From NCBI RefSeq assembly GCF_019334305.1, contig NZ_JAHWGH010000014.1, positions 620,001-684,000 on the forward strand: a stretch of DNA of 64,000 nt, given 5' to 3'. Shown here one piece after another: positions 43,927-61,815 of the stretch (its first letter is position 1; each line of letters starts with the position of its first letter). The notes beneath the pieces were generated by a model. That model made no database searches. It saw only the letters and a list, made by a program, of their open reading frames with translations, and was not told the origin of the DNA. This stretch comes from Rossellomorea orangium (lineage in GTDB: Bacteria > Bacillota > Bacilli > Bacillales > Bacillaceae_B). The position numbers and the translations under genes are program-made.

Positions 43927-45534
43927 TTACAGTCCCAGATCAAATCCTTCATCATCAGACTGCAGCATTGTATTTAGACCAAGATCTGTTGAAAGACCAA
44001 GGTTGAATTCTGAATCTGAAGACTCTTCATTTTCCCATCGTGTGTAGCTTGCATCTGTATTTACACCAAGGTTTGATAGAAGAGACGATTCGTTGTCCTC
44101 GTCAGAAGATAAAAATCCAAGAGCAGTATCCGTACCTGCATTTAATCCTGCACTTCTATACTCTTCTTCTTCAGAATCCATTGATTCAGCCCATAGTCCC
44201 GCATTCACTGCGTTCATGACAGTAGCTGCAGATTCATTGTCTTCATCGTTTGTCATAGCACCAAGCATTAGGTTATTCGCTGCATTCGCTTCGAACTTGG
44301 AATAGTCTTCGCTGTTTTCAACAGTTGTCATAACAGAAGTATCGTTCATTGCTTCTACTTGAGAAGAATCACCATCTTCTTTATCCATTGTTCCAAGTAC
44401 CAGACCGTTTGCAGATTCAGTACCGATTGACGTTTTAGAAGAATCGTTTTCTTCACTGCCTTCTGTCATCACCCATACATTGGAATCAGTCATCGCATCA
44501 GCACTCACTTCATTCTCTTCATCAGATGCAGAAGCATTAAGAACAGAAGCAAGGTTTCCGGAAGTAGTAGAAGCATAAGAATCATCTTCTTCATTGTACA
44601 TCGTTTCATTCATGATTCCAGCGTCAGTCATAGCGTTTACTGCTGCTGATCCATCTTCTCCTTCAACTGCTGCGTTTACATCCTGAGATGCTCCCGCTTC
44701 AGTCATGGATGTGAAAGAATCGTCTTCTTCGCTGTACGTCGTTTCATTCATGACACCAGCTTCTGTATCAGCATTCACTTCTGCTGATCCGTCTTCTCCT
44801 TCAACTGCTGCGTTTACATCCTGGGATGCTCCTGCTTCTGTCTTTGAAGTAAAAGAATCGTCTTCTTCGCTGTACGTCGTTTCATTCATGACACCAGCTT
44901 CCGTATCAGCACTTACTGCTGCTGATTCGTCTTCTCCTTCAACCGCTGCGTTTACATCCTGAGATGCTCCTGCTTCTGTCTTTGAAGTAAATGAATCGTC
45001 CTCTTCGCTGTACGTTGTTTCATTCATGACACCAGCCTCTGTATCAGCATTCACTTCTGCCGACTCGTCTTCTCCTTCAACTGCTGCATTCACATCCTGG
45101 GATGCTCCCGCTTCTGTCTTTGAAGTCGCTGAATCTTCTTCTACTGTCGTTTCATTCATAACAGCTGCGTCTGTATCAGCGTTCACTTCTGCTGATTCGT
45201 CTTCTCCTTCAACGTTTGCGTTTACATCTGAAGTTGCTTCTGCACCGTTCTTGGTCATGACAGAATCATTTTCTTCATCCACAACCGTTTCATTGACGAC
45301 GTTTGCATCAGCATCGGCGTTTGCATCCGTATTCGATTCTTCGTCTGATCCTCCGATGTTAAGTCCATTTAATAAACCATCTTCTGAATCAAGGATGTTG
45401 ATGTTTTCCAATAACCCATCATTGCTACCCAGCAGTGAATCATTCCCTGCCGCTAAGCTCGTGTGACCTCCGATTGCAAGACTTGCTGCTAATCCACCTG
45501 TCATTACCAATGTTCTAAATACGCTTTTTCTCAT
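43927..45534 (-). CDS. Secreted acidic repeat protein, 535 aa, unknown family
   Basis: A signal peptide (MRKSVFRTLVMTGGLAASLA..., cleavage near residue 29) is followed by an extremely acidic, Asn/Ala/Thr/Ser-rich protein. The central part holds tandem 46-residue units whose core reads GASQDVNAAVEGEDES, AEVNADTEAGVMNET, TYSEEDDSFTSKTEA. Three units are nearly identical and others are diverged. There is no cysteine, membrane anchor, sortase motif or known binding module. It follows another secreted repeat protein with only a 33-bp gap, so the two are probably co-transcribed. An extracellular matrix, surface or calcium-binding role is conceivable but unsupported. GGAG lies 11 nt before the ATG. 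Confidence 0.85.
   Translation of the reverse strand: MRKSVFRTLVMTGGLAASLAIGGHTSLAAGNDSLLGSNDGLLENINILDSEDGLLNGLNIGGSDEESNTDANADADANVVNETVVDEENDSVMTKNGAEATSDVNANVEGEDESAEVNADTDAAVMNETTVEEDSATSKTEAGASQDVNAAVEGEDESAEVNADTEAGVMNETTYSEEDDSFTSKTEAGASQDVNAAVEGEDESAAVSADTEAGVMNETTYSEEDDSFTSKTEAGASQDVNAAVEGEDGSAEVNADTEAGVMNETTYSEEDDSFTSMTEAGASQDVNAAVEGEDGSAAVNAMTDAGIMNETMYNEEDDSYASTTSGNLASVLNASASDEENEVSADAMTDSNVWVMTEGSEENDSSKTSIGTESANGLVLGTMDKEDGDSSQVEAMNDTSVMTTVENSEDYSKFEANAANNLMLGAMTNDEDNESAATVMNAVNAGLWAESMDSEEEEYRSAGLNAGTDTALGFLSSDEDNESSLLSNLGVNTDASYTRWENEESSDSEFNLGLSTDLGLNTMLQSDDEGFDLGL
44596..45285. repeat. 138-bp in-frame tandem repeats
   Basis: The same anchor (tgcgtttaca or its variant) starts at 44671, 44809, 44947 and 45085, exactly 138 bp apart, and then at 45217 (132 bp, two codons shorter). 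Boundaries of the outer degenerate units are approximate. The central copies are nearly identical at DNA level, implying recent duplication or gene conversion. Confidence 0.85.
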
Positions 45535-45567: not shown

Positions 45568-46758
45568 TTATATACTTTTGAAAAGAAGAGAATCTTGAGG
45601 TGGTTGGGACGGTGGTGCGTTTAACCACTGATCATAGTAGAGATTATTTTTCTCGTACATATTGGTTTTTTGTAAGTTGACGGCCGTTGCATATTGCTCC
45701 GACACAACCCATAGAGAAGATGATCCTGTTACCTGACCGCTCATTCCACTTGTACTGGATGACTGACTGGTTGAATTCATTGTAGTCGTCGTCAGGACCG
45801 GTTCCATCTTTTTACGGGGTGGAGAAGGCTGTTCGTTCTGATTTTCAGGTACTTCCATTTTAACGGAACGCTCTTTCTCCACTTCAACCGGTTTTGTAAG
45901 TATGGTTTCAATTTGGTTTTTGGCTTTGCTTATTCCAATGGAGCTTTGATCAGATTCGACCGGAACTTCTTCTTTGACCGGTTCCTTTCGAACATCTGCC
46001 CTCTCCATTTCGACGTCACGATCTTTATCCTCTGTGTCGACCAAAGGCTCGTCGGGCACTTCTGTTTCAATGTCCAATTTGACAGCTGGTTCCTTTGAAA
46101 CATCGGCGTCGACTACACCGGTATCCACTTTCACCTGTGGATCTTTGGACACTTCGACATCGACGACCCCTGTATTCACTTTTACTTCAGGATCATCTGA
46201 CAGATCCACTTCCAACAGAGGTTTATCGTCTGACAATGATTCCGTCACAGGCTTCGTTGTTTCTACAACTGTGTTGGTAACCGTCTTCGTCGTTGAATCC
46301 ACTGTACCCGTTACAGATTTCGTTGTTTTTTCAACGGTATTGGTAACCGCTTTGGTGGTGTTGTTCACCGTTTCCGTTACAGGAGCCGCTGAGTCCCCTA
46401 CAATATCAGTAACTGGTTTTGTCGTGTGTTCAACGGTTTTATTAGCGGTGTTTCCAACAGTCTTTGTTGCAGCGTTCACTGTGCCTGTAACCGATTCTGT
46501 CGTCTGATCGACCGTATCTGTCACCGAATCAACCGTACTGGAAAGGATATTCCCTTTGGATTGCTGATCCTCCTCTGAAGGTTTGTCCTTCTCCTCGTCA
46601 GGAGCGGACACGGCTTCATTCACGGTCGTTGTCGCGCTGTCAGTGACAGCGTTGACTTCATCCGTCACATTGGAGAGAAGTCCCCCCTCTGCTGAAGCAA
46701 AGGTTGGAATACTGATGACTCCAAGAAAAAGCAAAGCCTGAATTAGGCATTTTTGCAC
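45568..46758 (-). CDS. Secreted Val/Thr-rich repeat protein, 396 aa, unknown family
   Basis: A signal peptide (LIQALLFLGVISIPTFASAEGG) leads into 11-residue repeats of the type TTKxVTxTVxx over residues 70-175, as in amphipathic LEA-like or fibre-forming helices. Two 17-residue beta-like repeats follow (DPEVKVNTGVVDVEVSK, DPQVKVDTGVVDADVSK, then a third diverged unit). A charged Lys/Glu region, a Ser/Thr linker, and a unique aromatic C-terminus (NNLYYDQWLNAPPSQPP) complete the protein. No anchor motif is seen. GTG is the start, with GGAGG 12 nt upstream. Function unknown; the partner gene is immediately downstream. Confidence 0.78.
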   Translation of the reverse strand: MQKCLIQALLFLGVISIPTFASAEGGLLSNVTDEVNAVTDSATTTVNEAVSAPDEEKDKPSEEDQQSKGNILSSTVDSVTDTVDQTTESVTGTVNAATKTVGNTANKTVEHTTKPVTDIVGDSAAPVTETVNNTTKAVTNTVEKTTKSVTGTVDSTTKTVTNTVVETTKPVTESLSDDKPLLEVDLSDDPEVKVNTGVVDVEVSKDPQVKVDTGVVDADVSKEPAVKLDIETEVPDEPLVDTEDKDRDVEMERADVRKEPVKEEVPVESDQSSIGISKAKNQIETILTKPVEVEKERSVKMEVPENQNEQPSPPRKKMEPVLTTTTMNSTSQSSSTSGMSGQVTGSSSLWVVSEQYATAVNLQKTNMYEKNNLYYDQWLNAPPSQPPQDSLLFKSI

Positions 46759-46867: not shown

Positions 46868-47146
46868 CATGGTGTGTTGAAAAATCTTGTCCGACACCCA
46901 CCCTGCATCCCATTTTCACGAAGCTAACGAAGGTAGTTCATATTTGGATCACTTTTTTTCAAAAAAATTTATTTTTCTTCTGGAAAATTGTCAGAAAAGG
47001 ATGAATCTGAAAAATTCCGTTTACCCCCTTTTCCCATAAAAAGTGAGATGTTACAATGTACAACCGTAAGCAATCTTAACGTAGCTCTTTCGAGAGTTAG
47101 TCGGAGATTCCAATCAATACTACGCAAAGAAAGGATGTTGATTTCA

Positions 47147-55033: not shown

Positions 55034-56038
55034 ATGTTATCAAACTCTGAAATTGGGATCGATTTAGGAACTGCAAATATACTTGTTTATAGTAAAAATA
55101 AAGGAATTATACTTAACGAGCCATCTGTTGTGGCCATCGACACTGAAAACAAAACGGTCTTGGCTGTCGGAACCGAAGCCAAGAGCATGATCGGGAAAAC
55201 ACCTGGGAAGATCGTGGCTGTACGCCCTCTTAAAGATGGTGTGATTGCCGACTTTGATGTGACAACTGAAATGCTGAAGCAAGTCATGAAGAAGGCGAGT
55301 AAAAAATTAGGATTTTCTATCCGCAAGCCGACCGTGGTTGTGTGTACGCCATCCGGTGCGACAAGTGTTGAGAGAAGAGCAATTCAGGATGCGGTAAGAG
55401 GTAGCGGCGCAAAATCCGTGACCCTTATCGAAGAGCCTGTTGCTGCTGCAATCGGTGCTGACCTCCCTGTAGGTGAGCCTGTTGCCAACGTCATCGTTGA
55501 TATTGGCGGAGGAACGACGGAAGTGGCGATCATCTCTTACGGAGGGGTTGTTTCTTGCAATACCATCCGTATCGGTGGAGATCAAATGGATGAAGATATC
55601 GTTCAATATGTGCGTAAACGCTACAATCTCCTCATTGGAGAAAGAACGGCTGAATTAGTGAAGATCGAAGTCGGCCAAGCACTGATCGATCACGAAGAAA
55701 GAACCATGGATATCCGTGGACGTGACCTGGTGACAGGTCTGCCGAAAACGATTGAACTTTCATCAAACGAAATCCAGGATGCGTTGAAAGAGTCTCTTCT
55801 ACACATCTTGGAAACCATCCGTGCAACATTGGAAAATTGTCCTCCTGAACTGAGTGGGGACATCGTTGACCGCGGAGTCATCTTAACAGGTGGCGGAGCC
55901 CTTCTGAATGGACTTCAGGATTGGCTGAGCCAGGAGATCGTTGTACCGGTTCACTTAGCTCCAAACCCTCTTGAGTCTGTGGCAATCGGAACAGGACGTT
56001 CCCTATCCGTGATTCACAAATTACAAAAAGTAAAATAA
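55034..56038 (+). CDS. mreBH: Rod-shape actin homologue MreBH
   Basis: The 334-aa product is an MreB-family actin with phosphate-1 motif [18 protein letters not shown], phosphate-2 [12 protein letters not shown] and adenosine motif [14 protein letters not shown]. Its sequence follows B. subtilis MreBH more closely than MreB or Mbl (for example [22 protein letters not shown]), and it stands alone rather than with mreCD. It organises lateral cell-wall synthesis and the LytE autolysin at the membrane. GGAGG lies 8 nt before the ATG. Confidence 0.94.
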
Positions 56039-56129: not shown

Positions 56130-56160
56130 GTGATCCAAATTCTTATTCCCCTCGTTAGCT
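56130..56160 (+). promoter_or_regulatory. Predicted ECF promoter of the sigma/anti-sigma operon
   Basis: GTGATCCA (56130-56137) and CGTTAGCT (56153-56160) are 15 bp apart, 68 bp before the sigma start. Exactly the same two octamers at the same spacing occur before the sortase-substrate gene at 58224-58254, while the intervening bases differ. That is the signature of an autoregulated ECF sigma factor. Confidence 0.8.
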
Positions 56161-56228
56161 TATTACAATTGAGTTCCTACCCGTTGTTTAGTATCCTTAT
56201 TTTATATGTCAAAGATAAGGAGCGTATT

Positions 56229-56792
56229 ATGCCCAATGATTTGCAGGATGTAGAACTGTATCAACGTGTTTTGGCAAAAGACTCGACTGCATTACGACAG
56301 CTCTATCAGCAATATGAAAAACTGATCTATTCGTTTTCGTATAAAATGACGGGAGACCGTGAAATCGCGGAGGAAGTGATCCAGGAGGTTTTCATGAAAC
56401 TCTGGAAAAAGCACTCTCCCTATGACCACAGTAAAGGAAAATTCTCATCATGGCTGTTAACGATGACGAGAAATACGTGCCTTGATGCGTTACGCAGACG
56501 CAAAAAACATGAGTCTGTTGAATATATAGAGAAGGACTCCCTTCAGGTAACCTATGAAACTCCCGCCGATCAATTAGAGTGGAAGGAAAAAGGGACCGCG
56601 ATCAGAGATTGTATCCAATCATTGAAGGATGACCAGCAAAGAATCGTGCAATTATTCTATTTTAGAGGGTTGACTCAACAATCCATCGCTGAATCAACCG
56701 ATACTCCACTTGGAACAGTCAAAGGAAGAATCCGTTTAGCCCTGAAGCATTTACACACGTGTCTAAAAGGGAAAGGAGGTACGTTCGAATGA
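56229..56792 (+). CDS. ECF-type RNA polymerase sigma factor (SigK/RskA-associated type)
   Basis: The 187-aa product has sigma region 2 (LRQLYQQYEKLIYSFSYKMTGDREIAEEVIQEVFMKLWK) and region 4 (GLTQQSIAESTDTPLGTVKGRIRLALKHL). It lacks regions 1 and 3, so it is an ECF sigma. ATG 56229 (MPNDLQDVELYQRV) has GGAG 7 nt upstream; the longer frame starts at the predicted promoter itself. Its stop overlaps the anti-sigma start (ATGA). The shared promoter motif predicts that it drives its own operon and the sortase/substrate genes downstream. Confidence 0.9.
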   Translation: MPNDLQDVELYQRVLAKDSTALRQLYQQYEKLIYSFSYKMTGDREIAEEVIQEVFMKLWKKHSPYDHSKGKFSSWLLTMTRNTCLDALRRRKKHESVEYIEKDSLQVTYETPADQLEWKEKGTAIRDCIQSLKDDQQRIVQLFYFRGLTQQSIAESTDTPLGTVKGRIRLALKHLHTCLKGKGGTFE

Positions 56793-57505
56793 CGATACAA
56801 CCATGCGATCAATTACTGGATTACTACAACGGTCATTTATCTGAACTAGAGAAAGCTCAATTTGAGAAGCATTTAAAAAGCTGTGATCAGTGTCTTGAAG
56901 AACTTCATGAACTGGAGCAGTTATCGGACTATATGCCGTTCGCATCTGATGTTGTTGAACCTCCCAAAGACCTGGAAGACCGTGTTTTCGCTCATATTCT
57001 GGGGGATGAGAAACCGGAAGGCGCTGGATCAATCAAAAAAGCGAAGAAGAACAGGACATGGTTCCTCCCTTCTGTTGCCGCAGCATTAGCCCTTTCCCTT
57101 ATCGGCAATGCTTATCTGTTTACCCAGCTTGAGGACCAGAATGAAGTAGTTGAACAAGCAACGATCGATCAAGTCGTCCAATATGTCGATCTCGCTGCCG
57201 TCAATGGCAATGCTAAGGGAACTGCCAGCATCATCAAGCAAGGAGCACAAACGAGCATGGTGGTCCAGGCATCTGAACTTCAGGATCTTTCAGATGAAGA
57301 AGTGTATCAGGTATGGCTCATTAAAGATGAAAAGCCAGAACGAGCCGGAACGTTTGTCACCAGTAAGGATGGAAAAGGCTCCGTCGTATTCAAGTTCAAT
57401 GAAGAATTTACGAAGAAAGATTGGGATACGGTGGCCATCACCCTTGAACCGGATGCTGATAGTCAGCTTCCCCAGGGGGACATCGTGTTAGCGTCGGAAA
57501 TCTAA
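56789..57505 (+). CDS. Transmembrane anti-sigma factor, zinc-finger (ZAS) N-terminus and RskA-like C-terminus
   Basis: The 238-aa product has a cytoplasmic ZAS motif H28-x3-C32-x2-C35 that should hold the sigma factor, a single membrane helix at 91-111, and an extracytoplasmic RskA-type domain (120-238, with VYQVWLIKDEKPERAGTF). Release would follow regulated proteolysis on an envelope signal. ATG 56789 has AGGAGG 8 nt upstream. The envelope topology fits control of a cell-wall-anchored protein. Confidence 0.9.
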   Translation: MTIQPCDQLLDYYNGHLSELEKAQFEKHLKSCDQCLEELHELEQLSDYMPFASDVVEPPKDLEDRVFAHILGDEKPEGAGSIKKAKKNRTWFLPSVAAALALSLIGNAYLFTQLEDQNEVVEQATIDQVVQYVDLAAVNGNAKGTASIIKQGAQTSMVVQASELQDLSDEEVYQVWLIKDEKPERAGTFVTSKDGKGSVVFKFNEEFTKKDWDTVAITLEPDADSQLPQGDIVLASEI

Positions 57506-57528
57506 AAAAAGTTTTACCCATTATGTTT

Positions 57529-57562
57529 TGCCCGTCAGCCCTTTACTGACGGGCATTTTTTC
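57529..57562 (+). terminator. Terminator of the sigma/anti-sigma operon
   Basis: GCCCGTCAG and CTGACGGGC form a 9-bp stem, followed by ATTTTTT. Confidence 0.9.
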
Positions 57563-57749
57563 AATCCCCTTTTCTTTTATTTGAATAAAAGCGCCTATCC
57601 AAATGTTTGAGGTATTCGAACTAGGGAACATAGTCCTATGTAACAGAAGTTGTACAAATATTAAACAAAAATTTCTCTTCTTTTAAAGGGCCGCTTAGTA
57701 AAGACTCTTCACTCTTTCTATCATTCCACACCCTATTTTTCCTTTATTC

Positions 57750-58193
57750 AAAGGCTGTTTTCGTAAACTTGTTGCTTTTGGATGTAGCGAGTGGCGGTTG
57801 ATTTCCGCTACAGGTGCTCGCTTTCCGCTCCAATCAACTGACGAAAAGTTTGACTATCACAAAGGAAATGGAGAGATTGCGTATGCCACTGCTTTTTCAT
57901 TCGATGAAGTGACTGATTTTATTTAATAGTCCTTTACTCTTTTTAAACGGATGGTCACACACCGTTTTGCTCTGTCAACACTTACTACTCTAGAGGGTGA
58001 AGGGAACTGCGTAGACTCCTACGGAAAACGGGCGTGCCGAGACCCCGGAAGCGAATTGTGCTGAGGAGGCTCGGCCGAACGTCCGTGGAAAGCGGAGCAG
58101 TTCCCTTCACCCTCCTGCACCACAACCTAAATGACAGAGCATCGTAAATCTAAGTTTGGATGCAATGCAACAATCTTTGCGAAAACAGCCTTT
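57750..58193. repeat. 444-bp non-coding element with 14-bp terminal inverted repeats and nested hairpins
   Basis: AAAGGCTGTTTTCG (57750-57763) and its exact inverse CGAAAACAGCCTTT (58180-58193) bracket a region without genes. Inside is a hairpin with perfect 18-bp arms (57993-58010 and 58097-58114). Its inner sequence (GACTCCTACGG, GAGACCCCGGAAG, GAGGAGGCTCG) is related to the repeat inside 51398-51709. A second segment near 57795-57845 (GCGGTTGATTTCCGCT) is of another Bacillaceae repeat type. No transposase is present. Confidence 0.8.
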
Positions 58194-58223
58194 TCAAAAG
58201 AATTGAAAAAAGTTTTTAAAAAA

Positions 58224-58254
58224 GTGATCCATGTTAAAACTTCTGTCGTTAGCT
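58224..58254 (+). promoter_or_regulatory. Predicted ECF promoter of the sortase-substrate operon
   Basis: GTGATCCA (58224-58231) and CGTTAGCT (58247-58254) are 15 bp apart, 39 bp before the start codon and identical in box and spacing to 56130-56160. Confidence 0.8.
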
Positions 58255-58293
58255 CTATGAAAATATAAAAAAATCAAAAGGAGAGATTTACTT

Positions 58294-59649
58294 ATGAAAA
58301 TGAAAAAAAGTTATTTAGCCGTCCCATTAAGTATGACACTACTAATTCCAACTGCAGGTGCAGTATCAGCACATAACGGTGAAGATCATTCTCATGATGC
58401 CAAAGTGGATACACCGGCAGGAGAATTAAGAACAACTTTGGATCGCTTACTTACTGAACATGCATACTTAGCCGTTGAAGCCATGAGACGTGGAGCAGAA
58501 GGCGCGGAAGATTTCGATGCGGCAGCCGGTGCTTTAAATGATAACGCAGCCGACTTAAAAGGTGCCATCGCTTCTGTGTATGGTGAAGAAGCCGGCAACC
58601 AGTTCAACACGATCTGGACGAATCACATCGGATTCTTCGTGGATTATGTAAAAGCAACGGGTGCGAATGACCAGGCTGCCAAAGATGAAGCCCTGGCGAA
58701 TCTGGCAGGATATAAAGAAGAGTTCTCGAATTTCCTTGAGACCGCTACTGGTGAACGTTTGAAATCTGATAGTCTGGCAGAAGGACTACAAATGCATATC
58801 AACCAATTGATCGGTGCATTTGATAGTTATGTTGCCGGAGACTATGAAAAGGCTTACGAATATGAGCGTGAAGCAATCGGACATATGGCCATGGTATCAA
58901 AAGGATTATCCAGTGCGATCACGGACCAATATCCGGATAAATTCGAAAACACGATGGCCGTGACTCCTGCAACAGACTTACGCTCGACCCTTAACCATCT
59001 GTTAACCGAGCATGCTGCCCTTGCTACCATGGCGATGCAAAACGGAATCGACGGTTCAAAAGACTTTGACGCTTCGGTTAATGCACTGAATGCCAACACG
59101 GAAGATCTTTCTGCAGCCATCGCATCTGTATATGGTGAAGAGGCCGGTAACCAATTTAAAGACATGTGGTCAAAACATATCGGATTCTTCGTGGACTATG
59201 TAAAAGCAACGGGAGCCGAGGATGAAGCAGCTAAAAAAGAAGCGATCAAGAATCTTGATGGATACCGCGCTGAATTCTCTAAATTCCTTGAAACAGCAAC
59301 AGACGGCCGCTTGAAATCCGATGCCCTGGCAGACGGTCTTCAAATGCACGTAGAACAACTGACTGGCGCATTCGACAGCTACGCTGCAGGTGACTATGAA
59401 AAAGCATGGGACGGAATCCGTATGGCATATGAGCATATGCTGAACCCGGCAAAAGGATTATCAGGTGCTTTCGCTGATCAATTCCCTGACAAATTCAAAG
59501 CCAACATGCCTTCAGAAATGCCTAACACTGGTATGGGTGGAACCGCTGACGAAAACGAATTCCCATTCGAATTCCTTCTTGCAGCCCTTCTGATCATCGC
59601 TGGTGGAACAACACTCGGAATGAAAAAATACGCTTCACACAAACAATAA
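58294..59649 (+). CDS. Cell-wall-anchored protein with two four-histidine helical domains (MPNTG sortase substrate)
   Basis: The 451-aa product has a signal peptide (cleavage near residue 26) and a mature His-rich start (HNGEDHSHD). Two tandem, similar helical domains of about 185 residues follow. Each has histidines at matching places: H56/H240 (LTEHA), H111/H295 (HIGFFVDYVKATGA), H168/H352 (LQMH) and H197/H381. That pattern suits a metal or haem site in a helical bundle. The C-terminus is a sortase signal: MPNTG (409-413), a hydrophobic helix (424-442) and a basic tail. GGAG precedes the ATG. A class F sortase gene follows. I know no named family; function inferred only in outline. Confidence 0.85.
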   Translation: MKMKKSYLAVPLSMTLLIPTAGAVSAHNGEDHSHDAKVDTPAGELRTTLDRLLTEHAYLAVEAMRRGAEGAEDFDAAAGALNDNAADLKGAIASVYGEEAGNQFNTIWTNHIGFFVDYVKATGANDQAAKDEALANLAGYKEEFSNFLETATGERLKSDSLAEGLQMHINQLIGAFDSYVAGDYEKAYEYEREAIGHMAMVSKGLSSAITDQYPDKFENTMAVTPATDLRSTLNHLLTEHAALATMAMQNGIDGSKDFDASVNALNANTEDLSAAIASVYGEEAGNQFKDMWSKHIGFFVDYVKATGAEDEAAKKEAIKNLDGYRAEFSKFLETATDGRLKSDALADGLQMHVEQLTGAFDSYAAGDYEKAWDGIRMAYEHMLNPAKGLSGAFADQFPDKFKANMPSEMPNTGMGGTADENEFPFEFLLAALLIIAGGTTLGMKKYASHKQ

Positions 59650-59663
59650 TCTTTAACATGAGA

Positions 59664-59690
59664 GGGACGGACCTATAATAGGTCCGTCCC
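59664..59690. repeat. GGGACGGACCT hairpin between substrate and sortase genes
   Basis: GGGACGGACCT (59664-59674) pairs perfectly with AGGTCCGTCCC (59680-59690) over a 5-nt loop. There is no T-run, so it may process or stabilise the transcript rather than end it. Confidence 0.7.
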
Positions 59691-59723
59691 CCAGTGTGAA
59701 GATGAAAGGAGTGGCTTCACATA

Positions 59724-60371
59724 ATGTATACTATGAGGGTTGTACTGCTTGTGCTTGTACTATTGCCCATTTCTGCATGTTCTGCTGGAATTAGTTCAAA
59801 TTCTACAGGAGATGATAAGGCAACTACTCAAACAGCAGAGAAGCAGGAAAAACCAACAACTCAGATGGCCAGTACCACAACCTCCCCTTCTCCATATGCA
59901 GATACCATCATTATGGATGAAAGAAGCGGAATCGTTCCCGCTACGATCGACATCCCTGCCATTGGTGTTTCTACATCCATCGAAGCCGTTGGCTTGAAGG
60001 AAAACGGAGAAATGGCTGTAACGGAAAGCTTTGAAACGACTGCCTGGTATCAGGGCGGATACAAGCCGGGTGAACCAGGTAATGCCGTCATCGGTGGTCA
60101 TGTGGACAGCCGGAACGGTCCAGCGGTTTTTTATAAGTTGAATAAGCTTTCAAAGGGCGATGAAATCACCATCAAAAATAAAGATGGCGAAAAGAGGACC
60201 TTTGTTGTCATAGACAAGAAAGAATATCCATGGGACGATGCTCCCCTGAAATCAATTTTTGGATATTCCGCGGCAAGCTCCCTTAACCTTATCACCTGTA
60301 CAGGTGACTTTGACCATTCTGCAAGGAATTACAGCAAGCGGCTTGTCGTCTACACCGAATTGAAATCCTGA
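59724..60371 (+). CDS. Class F-type sortase with lipoprotein signal
   Basis: The 215-aa product has a sortase domain with catalytic H126 (VIGGHVDS), C192 (NLITCTGDFD) and R206 (YSKRLVVY), and the class D/F-like beta-barrel start ATIDIPAIGVSTSIEAVGL. The N-terminus ends LPISAC at C19, a lipobox, so it is probably a lipid-anchored sortase with a Ser/Thr/Gln linker (20-60). It lies just downstream of a MPNTG substrate and is its likely partner, cutting between Thr and Gly and linking the protein to the wall. AGGAG lies about 12 nt before ATG 59724. Confidence 0.92.
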   Translation: MYTMRVVLLVLVLLPISACSAGISSNSTGDDKATTQTAEKQEKPTTQMASTTTSPSPYADTIIMDERSGIVPATIDIPAIGVSTSIEAVGLKENGEMAVTESFETTAWYQGGYKPGEPGNAVIGGHVDSRNGPAVFYKLNKLSKGDEITIKNKDGEKRTFVVIDKKEYPWDDAPLKSIFGYSAASSLNLITCTGDFDHSARNYSKRLVVYTELKS

Positions 60372-60735: not shown

Positions 60736-61815
60736 TCAATATGGTTTCTCCTGATAGAAGTAATTGGTCGAATTCCACGTATTCTCGTATTCTTTATGAA
60801 AGATATGGGTCGTCGCCGGCGAAACAGGCGGGATCAACCACGTCCAGTCCCCGGTTACATCACGGTCAGCTTGTTTTTCATTTTCTTCAAACAGGCGGAA
60901 CTGCTGAGCAGCCGTATGATGATCGACAATGCTTACACCATCTTCTTTAAAAGAATGAAGCACGGCGATATTCAATTCGATCAGTGCCTTATCCTTCCAT
61001 AATGTAGCCGCTCTTGATGTATCAAGTCCCATGCAGCTTGCGACTTTCGGGATCAAATTGTAGCGGTTCTCATCGGCAAGATTCCGTGCACCGATTTCCG
61101 TTTCCATATACCAGCCGTTAAACGGGGCAGCCTTGTAAGAGATCCCGCCGATTTTCAACTCCATGTCAGAAATGATCGGGACGCCGTACCACTTCAATCC
61201 GAGATCCCGAAACCAGTCGAATTCAGGGTGACGGAGAGGTACTTCCAGTGTAAGATGGGGCTCAATGTTACTCATTCGCGGGGGCTCGTCCCCGATTTGC
61301 ACGACGAAAGGCAGAACATCGAAGTCAGTCCCTTGCCCTTTCCATCCAAGCTCCAGGCATTTATTCGTAAACTCGATGGAATGGGGATCCCCTCTGTAGT
61401 GACCATCATCCTCATAACCCGCATACCGGATCAATTGGTGATTCCATAAACGGATGTCAGGCTTATTGGGATGGGACGGTCTGAATACCGTGATCGTCGG
61501 GCGGATTCTTCCACCGTTGGACGCAAATTCCAAGTGGCGCTCTAACGCCTGGAACACCTCATCCTCGGTTGCAGCTTCCCTTTCGTCAAATACGTTCAAC
61601 GAATTCCAGAACAATCGGCCGATGCAGCGATTGCTGTTCCTCCAGGCCATTTTGGCGCCAAGGACAAGCTCTTCGTTTGTATGGGTATAAGTTCCTTCTG
61701 TAGCAATTTCATTTTCTATTTGTTGTAATCGAAACGCGATGTCTGCTTCGCTTTTATTCAGTTCCATAAACACTTGTTCAATGAAGGCTTTCGCCTCATC
61801 CATAATCGGTGTCAA
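60736..61815 (-). CDS. nos: Bacterial nitric oxide synthase oxygenase
   Basis: The 359-aa product matches bNOS along its length. C64 in [14 protein letters not shown] is the axial haem ligand, and E240 in [14 protein letters not shown] binds L-arginine. The [16 protein letters not shown] and [12 protein letters not shown] segments form the pterin/haem pocket. It lacks a reductase domain, as in other Bacillus, and relies on cellular flavodoxin/reductases to make NO. The start is probably TTG 61815 with GGGA about 10 nt upstream; ATG 61803 is an alternative. Hmp and NsrR in this window handle the product. Confidence 0.96.

Follow-up and report, generated by a model that had tools for sequence, protein, structure and literature searches.

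Does a single extracytoplasmic function (ECF) sigma factor of Rossellomorea orangium control both its own operon and a nearby sortase-anchored surface protein? The question is raised by a 64,000-nucleotide stretch of this genome (contig NZ_JAHWGH010000014.1, positions 620,001 to 684,000 of the forward strand; hereafter the window, numbered from its first letter). In the window, the bipartite motif GTGATCCA-N15-CGTTAGCT lies upstream of an ECF sigma gene, which is followed by an RskA-type anti-sigma gene, and upstream of the gene for a sortase substrate, which is followed by a sortase gene. Both octamer pairs are exact and both have a 15-bp gap. The first (56130..56160, + strand) is a predicted ECF promoter (−35/−10) of the sigma operon, with the sigma ATG (56229) 68 bp downstream. 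The second (58224..58254, +), identical in boxes and spacing, is the predicted ECF promoter from which the substrate-sortase operon would be transcribed; the substrate ATG at 58294 follows after 39 bp. In −35/−10 terms, the motif reads TGATCC, 16 bp, CGTTAG. The original prediction, made from the letters of the window, had reported the two sites, their distances to the start codons and the unrelatedness of the bases between the boxes; the coordinates and distances are exactly right and the spacers are indeed unrelated. It had also described the gene set as self-contained. That description does not hold: a third exact copy (46922..46952, −) was overlooked 163 bp before a gene that we call rep1, a fourth stands on another contig immediately upstream of a DoxX-family gene, and there are further predicted targets.

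Exact copies of the motif are far commoner in this genome than expected by chance. The four exact copies, before sigma, substrate, rep1 and DoxX, are all that the 4.57-Mb genome contains, and simple arithmetic assuming equal base frequencies predicts ∼0.002. A scan of the window at ≤3 mismatches returned three matches against 0.40 expected, all three of them exact, and one of 100 shuffles reached three. At the same tolerance, the whole genome yields 23 matches against 27 for the reversed control, so that within a single genome only near-exact sites are informative. From these sites and the comparisons below, we consider it very probable that the ECF sigma factor and the RskA-type anti-sigma factor of this locus form an autoregulated switch, and that the genes under its direct control have the GTGATCCA-N15-CGTTAGCT promoter in common. 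In the proposed mechanism, a membrane-spanning ZAS/RskA anti-sigma factor would hold the sigma factor, and an extracytoplasmic signal would release it. RNA polymerase with this sigma factor would then transcribe the sigma operon itself, the gene for a two-repeat, His-containing surface protein together with (in the window) a class F-like sortase able to anchor it via MPNTG, and the secreted pair rep1-rep2. In some species, DoxX and a small number of further envelope genes would be transcribed as well.

Within the genus, the motif recurs before the genes of the proposed regulon. We surveyed 36 Rossellomorea genomes, including the source genome, and assigned a site to a gene when a homologue started within 420 bp on the same strand. 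Thirty-three genomes contain the site at ≤1 mismatch; the reversed pattern gives two matches in all. Of the 88 sites found at this tolerance, 87 precede a sigma gene or its remnant (30), a substrate (42), rep1 (11), DoxX (3) or a YcnK-like regulator (1), and the odd one lies 48 bp before a chemoreceptor-like open reading frame (ORF). Thirty-two of the 36 genomes have an anti-sigma orthologue (E <1e-40). The site is also absent from three of the four genomes without an orthologue (G015, G017 and G033; the G017 assembly, 84% complete, lacks the sigma pair as well). In the fourth (G022, locus L108), the sigma, substrate and sortase genes have decayed to fragments, yet an exact site is still present upstream; this is a recently lost regulon.

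Several genomes carry substrates at a distance from the sigma gene. A B-type substrate (about 40–44% identity) lies away from sigma in 12 genomes, and all 12 remote copies have the site, ten with one mismatch and two (in G021 and G031) with two. G011–G013 and G027 each encode a single near-full-length substrate, which lies far from the sigma gene and is nevertheless preceded by a one-mismatch site; this argues for action in trans. Two to four tandem sites, one of them with two mismatches, precede the substrate in G016, G020 and G034 (L102, L106 and L119). As a negative control, a third substrate-sortase type (55–59% identity; L159 and L160, on G016 contig 1 and in G017) lacks any site at ≤3 mismatches in the locus.

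The association extends well beyond the genus. We examined 397 genomes of the order Bacillales, calling substrate homologues at E ≤1e-20 and anti-sigma homologues at E ≤1e-12, and found them in 155 and 167 genomes, respectively. The exact site occurs in 67 genomes, representing 23 of 135 genera and 15 family codes (a hand count), and the reversed control in two genomes. Both homologues are present in 66 of these 67 genomes and, outside Rossellomorea, in 52 of 53 (Fisher 4e-25 and 8e-23, uncorrected for phylogeny). In the lone exception, G080, the substrate gene downstream of the site is truncated. The absence of the motif before orthologues, named in the original prediction as grounds for refutation, is thus not observed: the motif also stands upstream of the substrate in other genera and families, and its occurrence follows that of the sigma/anti-sigma pair.

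Scans upstream of individual substrates give the same picture. Among named loci, of which we took the best 80 of 387, the 250 bp upstream of the substrate contain a site with ≤3 mismatches in 72 cases, against 2 of 1600 shuffles; the best sites have 0, 1, 2, 3, 4, 5 or 7 mismatches in 32, 28, 7, 5, 4, 2 and 2 loci, respectively. In a second control, a 250-bp segment 1.55–1.8 kb upstream contains such a site in 21 of 78 loci, and all 21 are the sigma factor's own promoter. We also chose 40 regions by hand from the substrate matches of other families and scanned 250 bp upstream, allowing one extra spacer base. The best site has 0, 1, 2 or 3 mismatches in 14, 14, 7 and 3 regions (38 of 40) and 5 or 6 in the other two; by hand count, 21 regions contain sigma and anti-sigma genes and 27 a sortase beside the substrate. 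Outside the genus, a hand count gives 80 exact sites, 41 of which were examined in 40 regions. Fifteen precede a substrate (one truncated), eight a sortase without an intervening substrate, five rep1 and two DoxX; by eye, two more precede a His-rich lipoprotein, two a secreted CHRD-resembling protein and one a small membrane protein. Taken with the window sequence, the genus and order surveys strongly support the regulatory core of the original prediction, in which the sigma factor drives its own operon and the substrate through shared boxes.

Several observations count against the proposed switch. Of the 167 genomes that encode an anti-sigma homologue, 101 do not contain the exact site; an exact match is a narrower requirement than the motif itself imposes, and paralogues may be included among these homologues. 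Among the 80 named loci, two from Planococcus have no recognisable site, two from Exiguobacterium retain little except the −10 box, and four from Salinicoccus stand at four mismatches. Outside the genus, the sigma factor's own promoter is often degenerate or missed by the scan, and 6 of the 41 examined exact sites have no gene close downstream. Finally, the 80-locus, 88-site and 40-region sets overlap in genomes or close relatives.

Variation in the −10 box provides a further link between the sigma factor and its promoters. A variant, CGATAGCT, in which the −10 box starts with CGA rather than CGT, occurs at the substrate promoter in nine rows of our comparison: five of Halobacillus type, two from Pontibacillus, one from Scopulibacillus and a Rossellomorea outlier (G014). 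The sigma factor's own promoter is also CGA in eight of the nine CGA rows against none of 54 CGT cases ([[8,1],[0,54]]). All nine CGA rows encode Tyr at the position of Asn82 in the window sigma factor, and the 67 CGT rows encode Asn (61), His (3) or Tyr (3). We infer from the alignment that residue 82 lies within the region 2.3/2.4 segment; according to the available text of PMC8103513, a region-2 specificity loop determines −10 preference in ECF sigma factors. On a quick sigma tree built without the residue-82 column, CGA requires three changes by parsimony, and Tyr accompanies CGA in 2.9 of 3 independent pairs, averaged over random pairings. Other features of these data point the other way: Tyr82 is also present in the three CGT rows, and in Scopulibacillus (L342) the sigma factor's own −10 is CGT while that of the substrate is CGA. 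Moreover, three independent pairs put significance out of reach, and long branches lead to two of the three CGA lineages. A natural shift from CGTTA to CGATA together with one sigma residue is a test case for −10 reading by ECF sigma factors, with the regulon moving with its sigma factor.

Could another protein read these sites? Overlapping specificity among ECF sigma factors is usual in Bacillus, and one alternative is that the sigma factor is autoregulated while the substrate site is read mainly by another ECF sigma factor of the same genome. A second sigma/anti-sigma pair is present in G027 (37% and 29% identity), and 4 of the 155 substrate genomes have no anti-sigma homologue, as this alternative would allow. 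None of these four, however, has the exact site, which occurs in just 1 of the 230 genomes without an anti-sigma homologue (G080), and the two promoters vary in step at the −10 box. We therefore consider a second sigma factor improbable as the main reader of the substrate site. A pair of conserved boxes could also be read by a dimeric regulator, and would then be the operator of an activator or repressor, with the neighbouring ECF sigma factor using other sites. However, the boxes are neither inverted nor direct repeats of each other, and their spacing is ECF-like (16 bp from TGATCC to CGTTAG, occasionally one base longer). Most sigma, substrate and DoxX genes start about 20–100 bp downstream of the boxes, the boxes track the sigma/anti-sigma pair, and the third base of the −10 box coincides with the change in the sigma residue. 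An operator is, on this evidence, quite unlikely.

The last alternative concerns a multi-copy intergenic repeat that fills much of 57750–58200, as far as the query reached, and so comes within some tens of bases of the second site. At least 69 matching pieces were found in the genome (40 of 99 candidates were scored), several of them at contig ends. The proximity of this repeat could make the motif match a by-product of the element, or else the match could be coincidence, but four exact sites against at least 69 repeat pieces indicate that the repeat as such is not the carrier of the site, and conservation of the site upstream of the substrate extends across the order, also to loci without the repeat, so we rejected the repeat as carrier and regard this alternative as having almost no chance of being correct.

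The autoregulated sigma/anti-sigma switch is consistent with the domain content of its first two genes. The sigma gene (56229..56792, +; 187 amino acids (aa)) has an AAGGAG ribosome-binding site before its ATG. A GTG start at 56130 was rejected because the ribosome-binding site belongs to the ATG at 56229. A domain search run from codon 2 on detected only the sigma2 and sigma4 domains (Pfam Sigma70_r2, 79.6 bits, cut-off 24; Sigma70_r4_2, 45.1 bits, cut-off 25.7), the composition of an ECF sigma factor, and the predicted occurrence of one motif before the sigma gene and its targets across the genus is likewise what an ECF sigma factor with its own promoter would show. Its nearest NCBIfam subfamilies are PRK12519 and SigK (PRK09646), both under their cut-offs; the SigK model gives 122.9 bits against a cut-off of 226, which places the protein outside the SigK group as that model defines it. 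The RskA-type anti-sigma gene (56789..57505, +; 238 aa from the ATG at 56789) overlaps the sigma stop by ATGA. Its product combines a zinc motif, H28-x3-C32-x2-C35, with one hydrophobic segment (92–114) and an RskA_C domain (70.4 bits, cut-off 29.4), and is thus a ZAS/RskA protein; H28, C32 and C35 are kept in 52, 51 and 51 of 52 sequences. An intrinsic terminator-like stem-loop with a T run (57529..57555, +) lies downstream of the anti-sigma gene and separates the two transcription units. The consensus scan that identified it found seven candidates in the region against 4.6 expected from shuffles, and this one has the longest stem, with 10 pairs.

The second transcription unit begins with the sortase substrate (58294..59649, +; 451 aa). 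Its signal peptide, MPNTG sorting motif (409–413) and hydrophobic segments (8–26 and 423–443), together with a basic tail, are those predicted for a sortase-anchored surface protein. Between the termini lie two homologous repeats of ∼176 aa, each with three invariant His residues: His56, 111 and 168 and His240, 295 and 352 are invariant in 50 aligned homologues. The two-fold repeat is supported by hhalign E values of 2e-26 to 1.5e-37 between matching thirds; a three-fold internal repeat within each half was rejected, as profile comparison supports the two-fold repeat only. Within the genus, a His-rich N-terminus (HNGEDHS) is present in A-type copies and absent from B-type copies. The invariant His residues would allow the metal or haem binding that the original prediction proposed, together with a possible envelope signal. 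No Pfam or NCBIfam family matches the substrate above cut-off, and no solved structure is convincingly related to it. Matches to the helical domain of oedema factor were below cut-off or had E above 0.2, and were taken as chance among helical proteins. Two Planococcus plasmid homologues (H1 and H2, with 94% query coverage) are named ‘copper amine oxidase’ in databases, but the window substrate has no such Pfam domain. A single-domain secreted homologue of the substrate repeat (∼28% identity) is encoded at L025 (G000 contig 18), a locus with no motif at ≤3 mismatches.

The sortase gene (59724..60371, +; 215 aa) follows the substrate. Its Pfam Sortase domain scores 77.7 bits (cut-off 26.6), and H126, C192 and R206 are invariant in 60 of 60 aligned near-full-length sequences, fragments having been left out; the protein is a sortase. 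The NCBIfam class F model gives 139.8 against a cut-off of 166, which is short of class F membership. Class F is nevertheless the best-scoring sortase class, and we therefore use the label ‘class F-like’. Class F sortases and the window enzyme have in common the Sortase domain and the invariant His, Cys and Arg residues; the window enzyme adjoins an MPNTG-bearing protein. The gene calls of the original prediction (sigma-70 r2/r4, zf-HC2 with RskA_C, Sortase, and a substrate with MPNTG followed by a hydrophobic segment) are all borne out. Its further statement that the substrate has its own sortase is true of the window and fails elsewhere: 4 of the 24 A-type cassettes of Rossellomorea have no intact neighbouring sortase, and in other families a sortase adjoins the substrate in the 27 of 40 regions counted above. 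In the four (G007, G028, G031 and G035; L091, L114, L117 and L120), the sortase beside the A-type substrate is missing or reduced to a 64-aa fragment. These lost neighbours speak against a strictly dedicated sortase. All four genomes also carry a B-type substrate elsewhere.

Beyond the two operons, the sigma factor is predicted to act on rep1-rep2 and DoxX, on substrate/sortase cassettes at other chromosomal positions, on sortase genes that stand alone in other families, and on some less certain members. Most predicted products are secreted, membrane or wall proteins. The third site lies upstream of rep1 (45568..46758, −; 396 aa), a secreted repeat protein, which is followed by a second, rep2 (43927..45534, −; 535 aa); the two are probably in one transcription unit. 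A site with ≤3 mismatches precedes DoxX at 20–22 bp in seven of the eight examples examined, out of 11 matches. In the source genome, a two-mismatch site (L135:3771-5903) precedes genes for a regulator and a PepSY membrane protein. The regulator has an HTH_DeoR domain and a weak NosL match (21.5 bits, cut-off 24), and we take it to be YcnK-like. Among 23 Rossellomorea matches to it, the best site has ≤4 mismatches in 17 and ≤2 in three, and membership of this operon in the regulon is possible. A link to copper was considered and rejected, as the YcnK-like sites are mostly degenerate and the ‘copper amine oxidase’ annotation is without domain support.

How does the proposed regulon compare with known systems? 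In mycobacteria, a co-transcribed ECF sigma factor, SigK, and the RskA membrane anti-sigma factor control genes for MPT70/MPT83-type proteins (PMC7509140, available text). SigK-RskA is labelled ECF19, and the Mycobacterium tuberculosis RskA does not rely on a zinc motif (both from the available text of PMC7406223). The window pair resembles SigK-RskA in joining an ECF sigma factor to an RskA-type membrane anti-sigma factor. It differs in that the window anti-sigma factor keeps its zinc motif, unlike the M. tuberculosis protein as described in that text, in its targets, and in a sigma score of 122.9 against the SigK cut-off of 226. Another relevant comparison is BldN-RsbN of Streptomyces, with the chaplins, where an ECF sigma factor drives sortase-anchored surface proteins, as proposed here; that system belongs to actinobacterial development and has other substrates and another sortase class. 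Bacillus subtilis SigW, SigM, SigX and SigV form autoregulated ECF/anti-sigma pairs that act on the cell envelope, with a −35 box of TGAAAC type versus TGATCC here. We know of no RskA_C anti-sigma factor or sortase cassette among the B. subtilis ECF sigma factors. Among the titles and abstract openings listed in the literature searched, we found no description of the regulon, its promoter signature, its breadth or the substrate family, although the 2021 reclassification of ECF sigma factors in Nucleic Acids Research (NAR) may catalogue the sigma group. PMC13251363 names class F sortase and sigma factor. The mechanism is ordinary ECF regulation of the ECF/RskA kind; the regulon itself appears to be new.

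The results predict a regulon precisely enough for it to be tested, marked by a 16-base promoter signature that can be recognised in many Bacillales families, and they tie a widespread surface-protein family to a sortase. We conjecture, with considerable doubt, that the whole is a previously undescribed, order-wide stress response of the Bacillales in which a SigK-like sigma factor builds a metal- or oxidant-buffering wall protein coat together with its anchoring sortase, and whose −10 specificity was rewired three times through joint changes in the sigma factor (Asn82 to Tyr) and its promoters.

Some further copies of the motif, and the flanks of the locus, deserve mention. At L261, L266 and L275, in two families, exact copies lie 1–1.5 kb before ATP-binding cassette (ABC) transporter genes, with no gene of ≥60 aa close downstream; an unannotated small gene or RNA downstream of these copies is possible. 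In the window, an MreBH gene (55034–56038, identified by an NCBIfam model) lies just upstream of sigma, and an ORF labelled by eye as nitric oxide synthase (60736–61815, −) lies downstream; both recur in many Rossellomorea loci.

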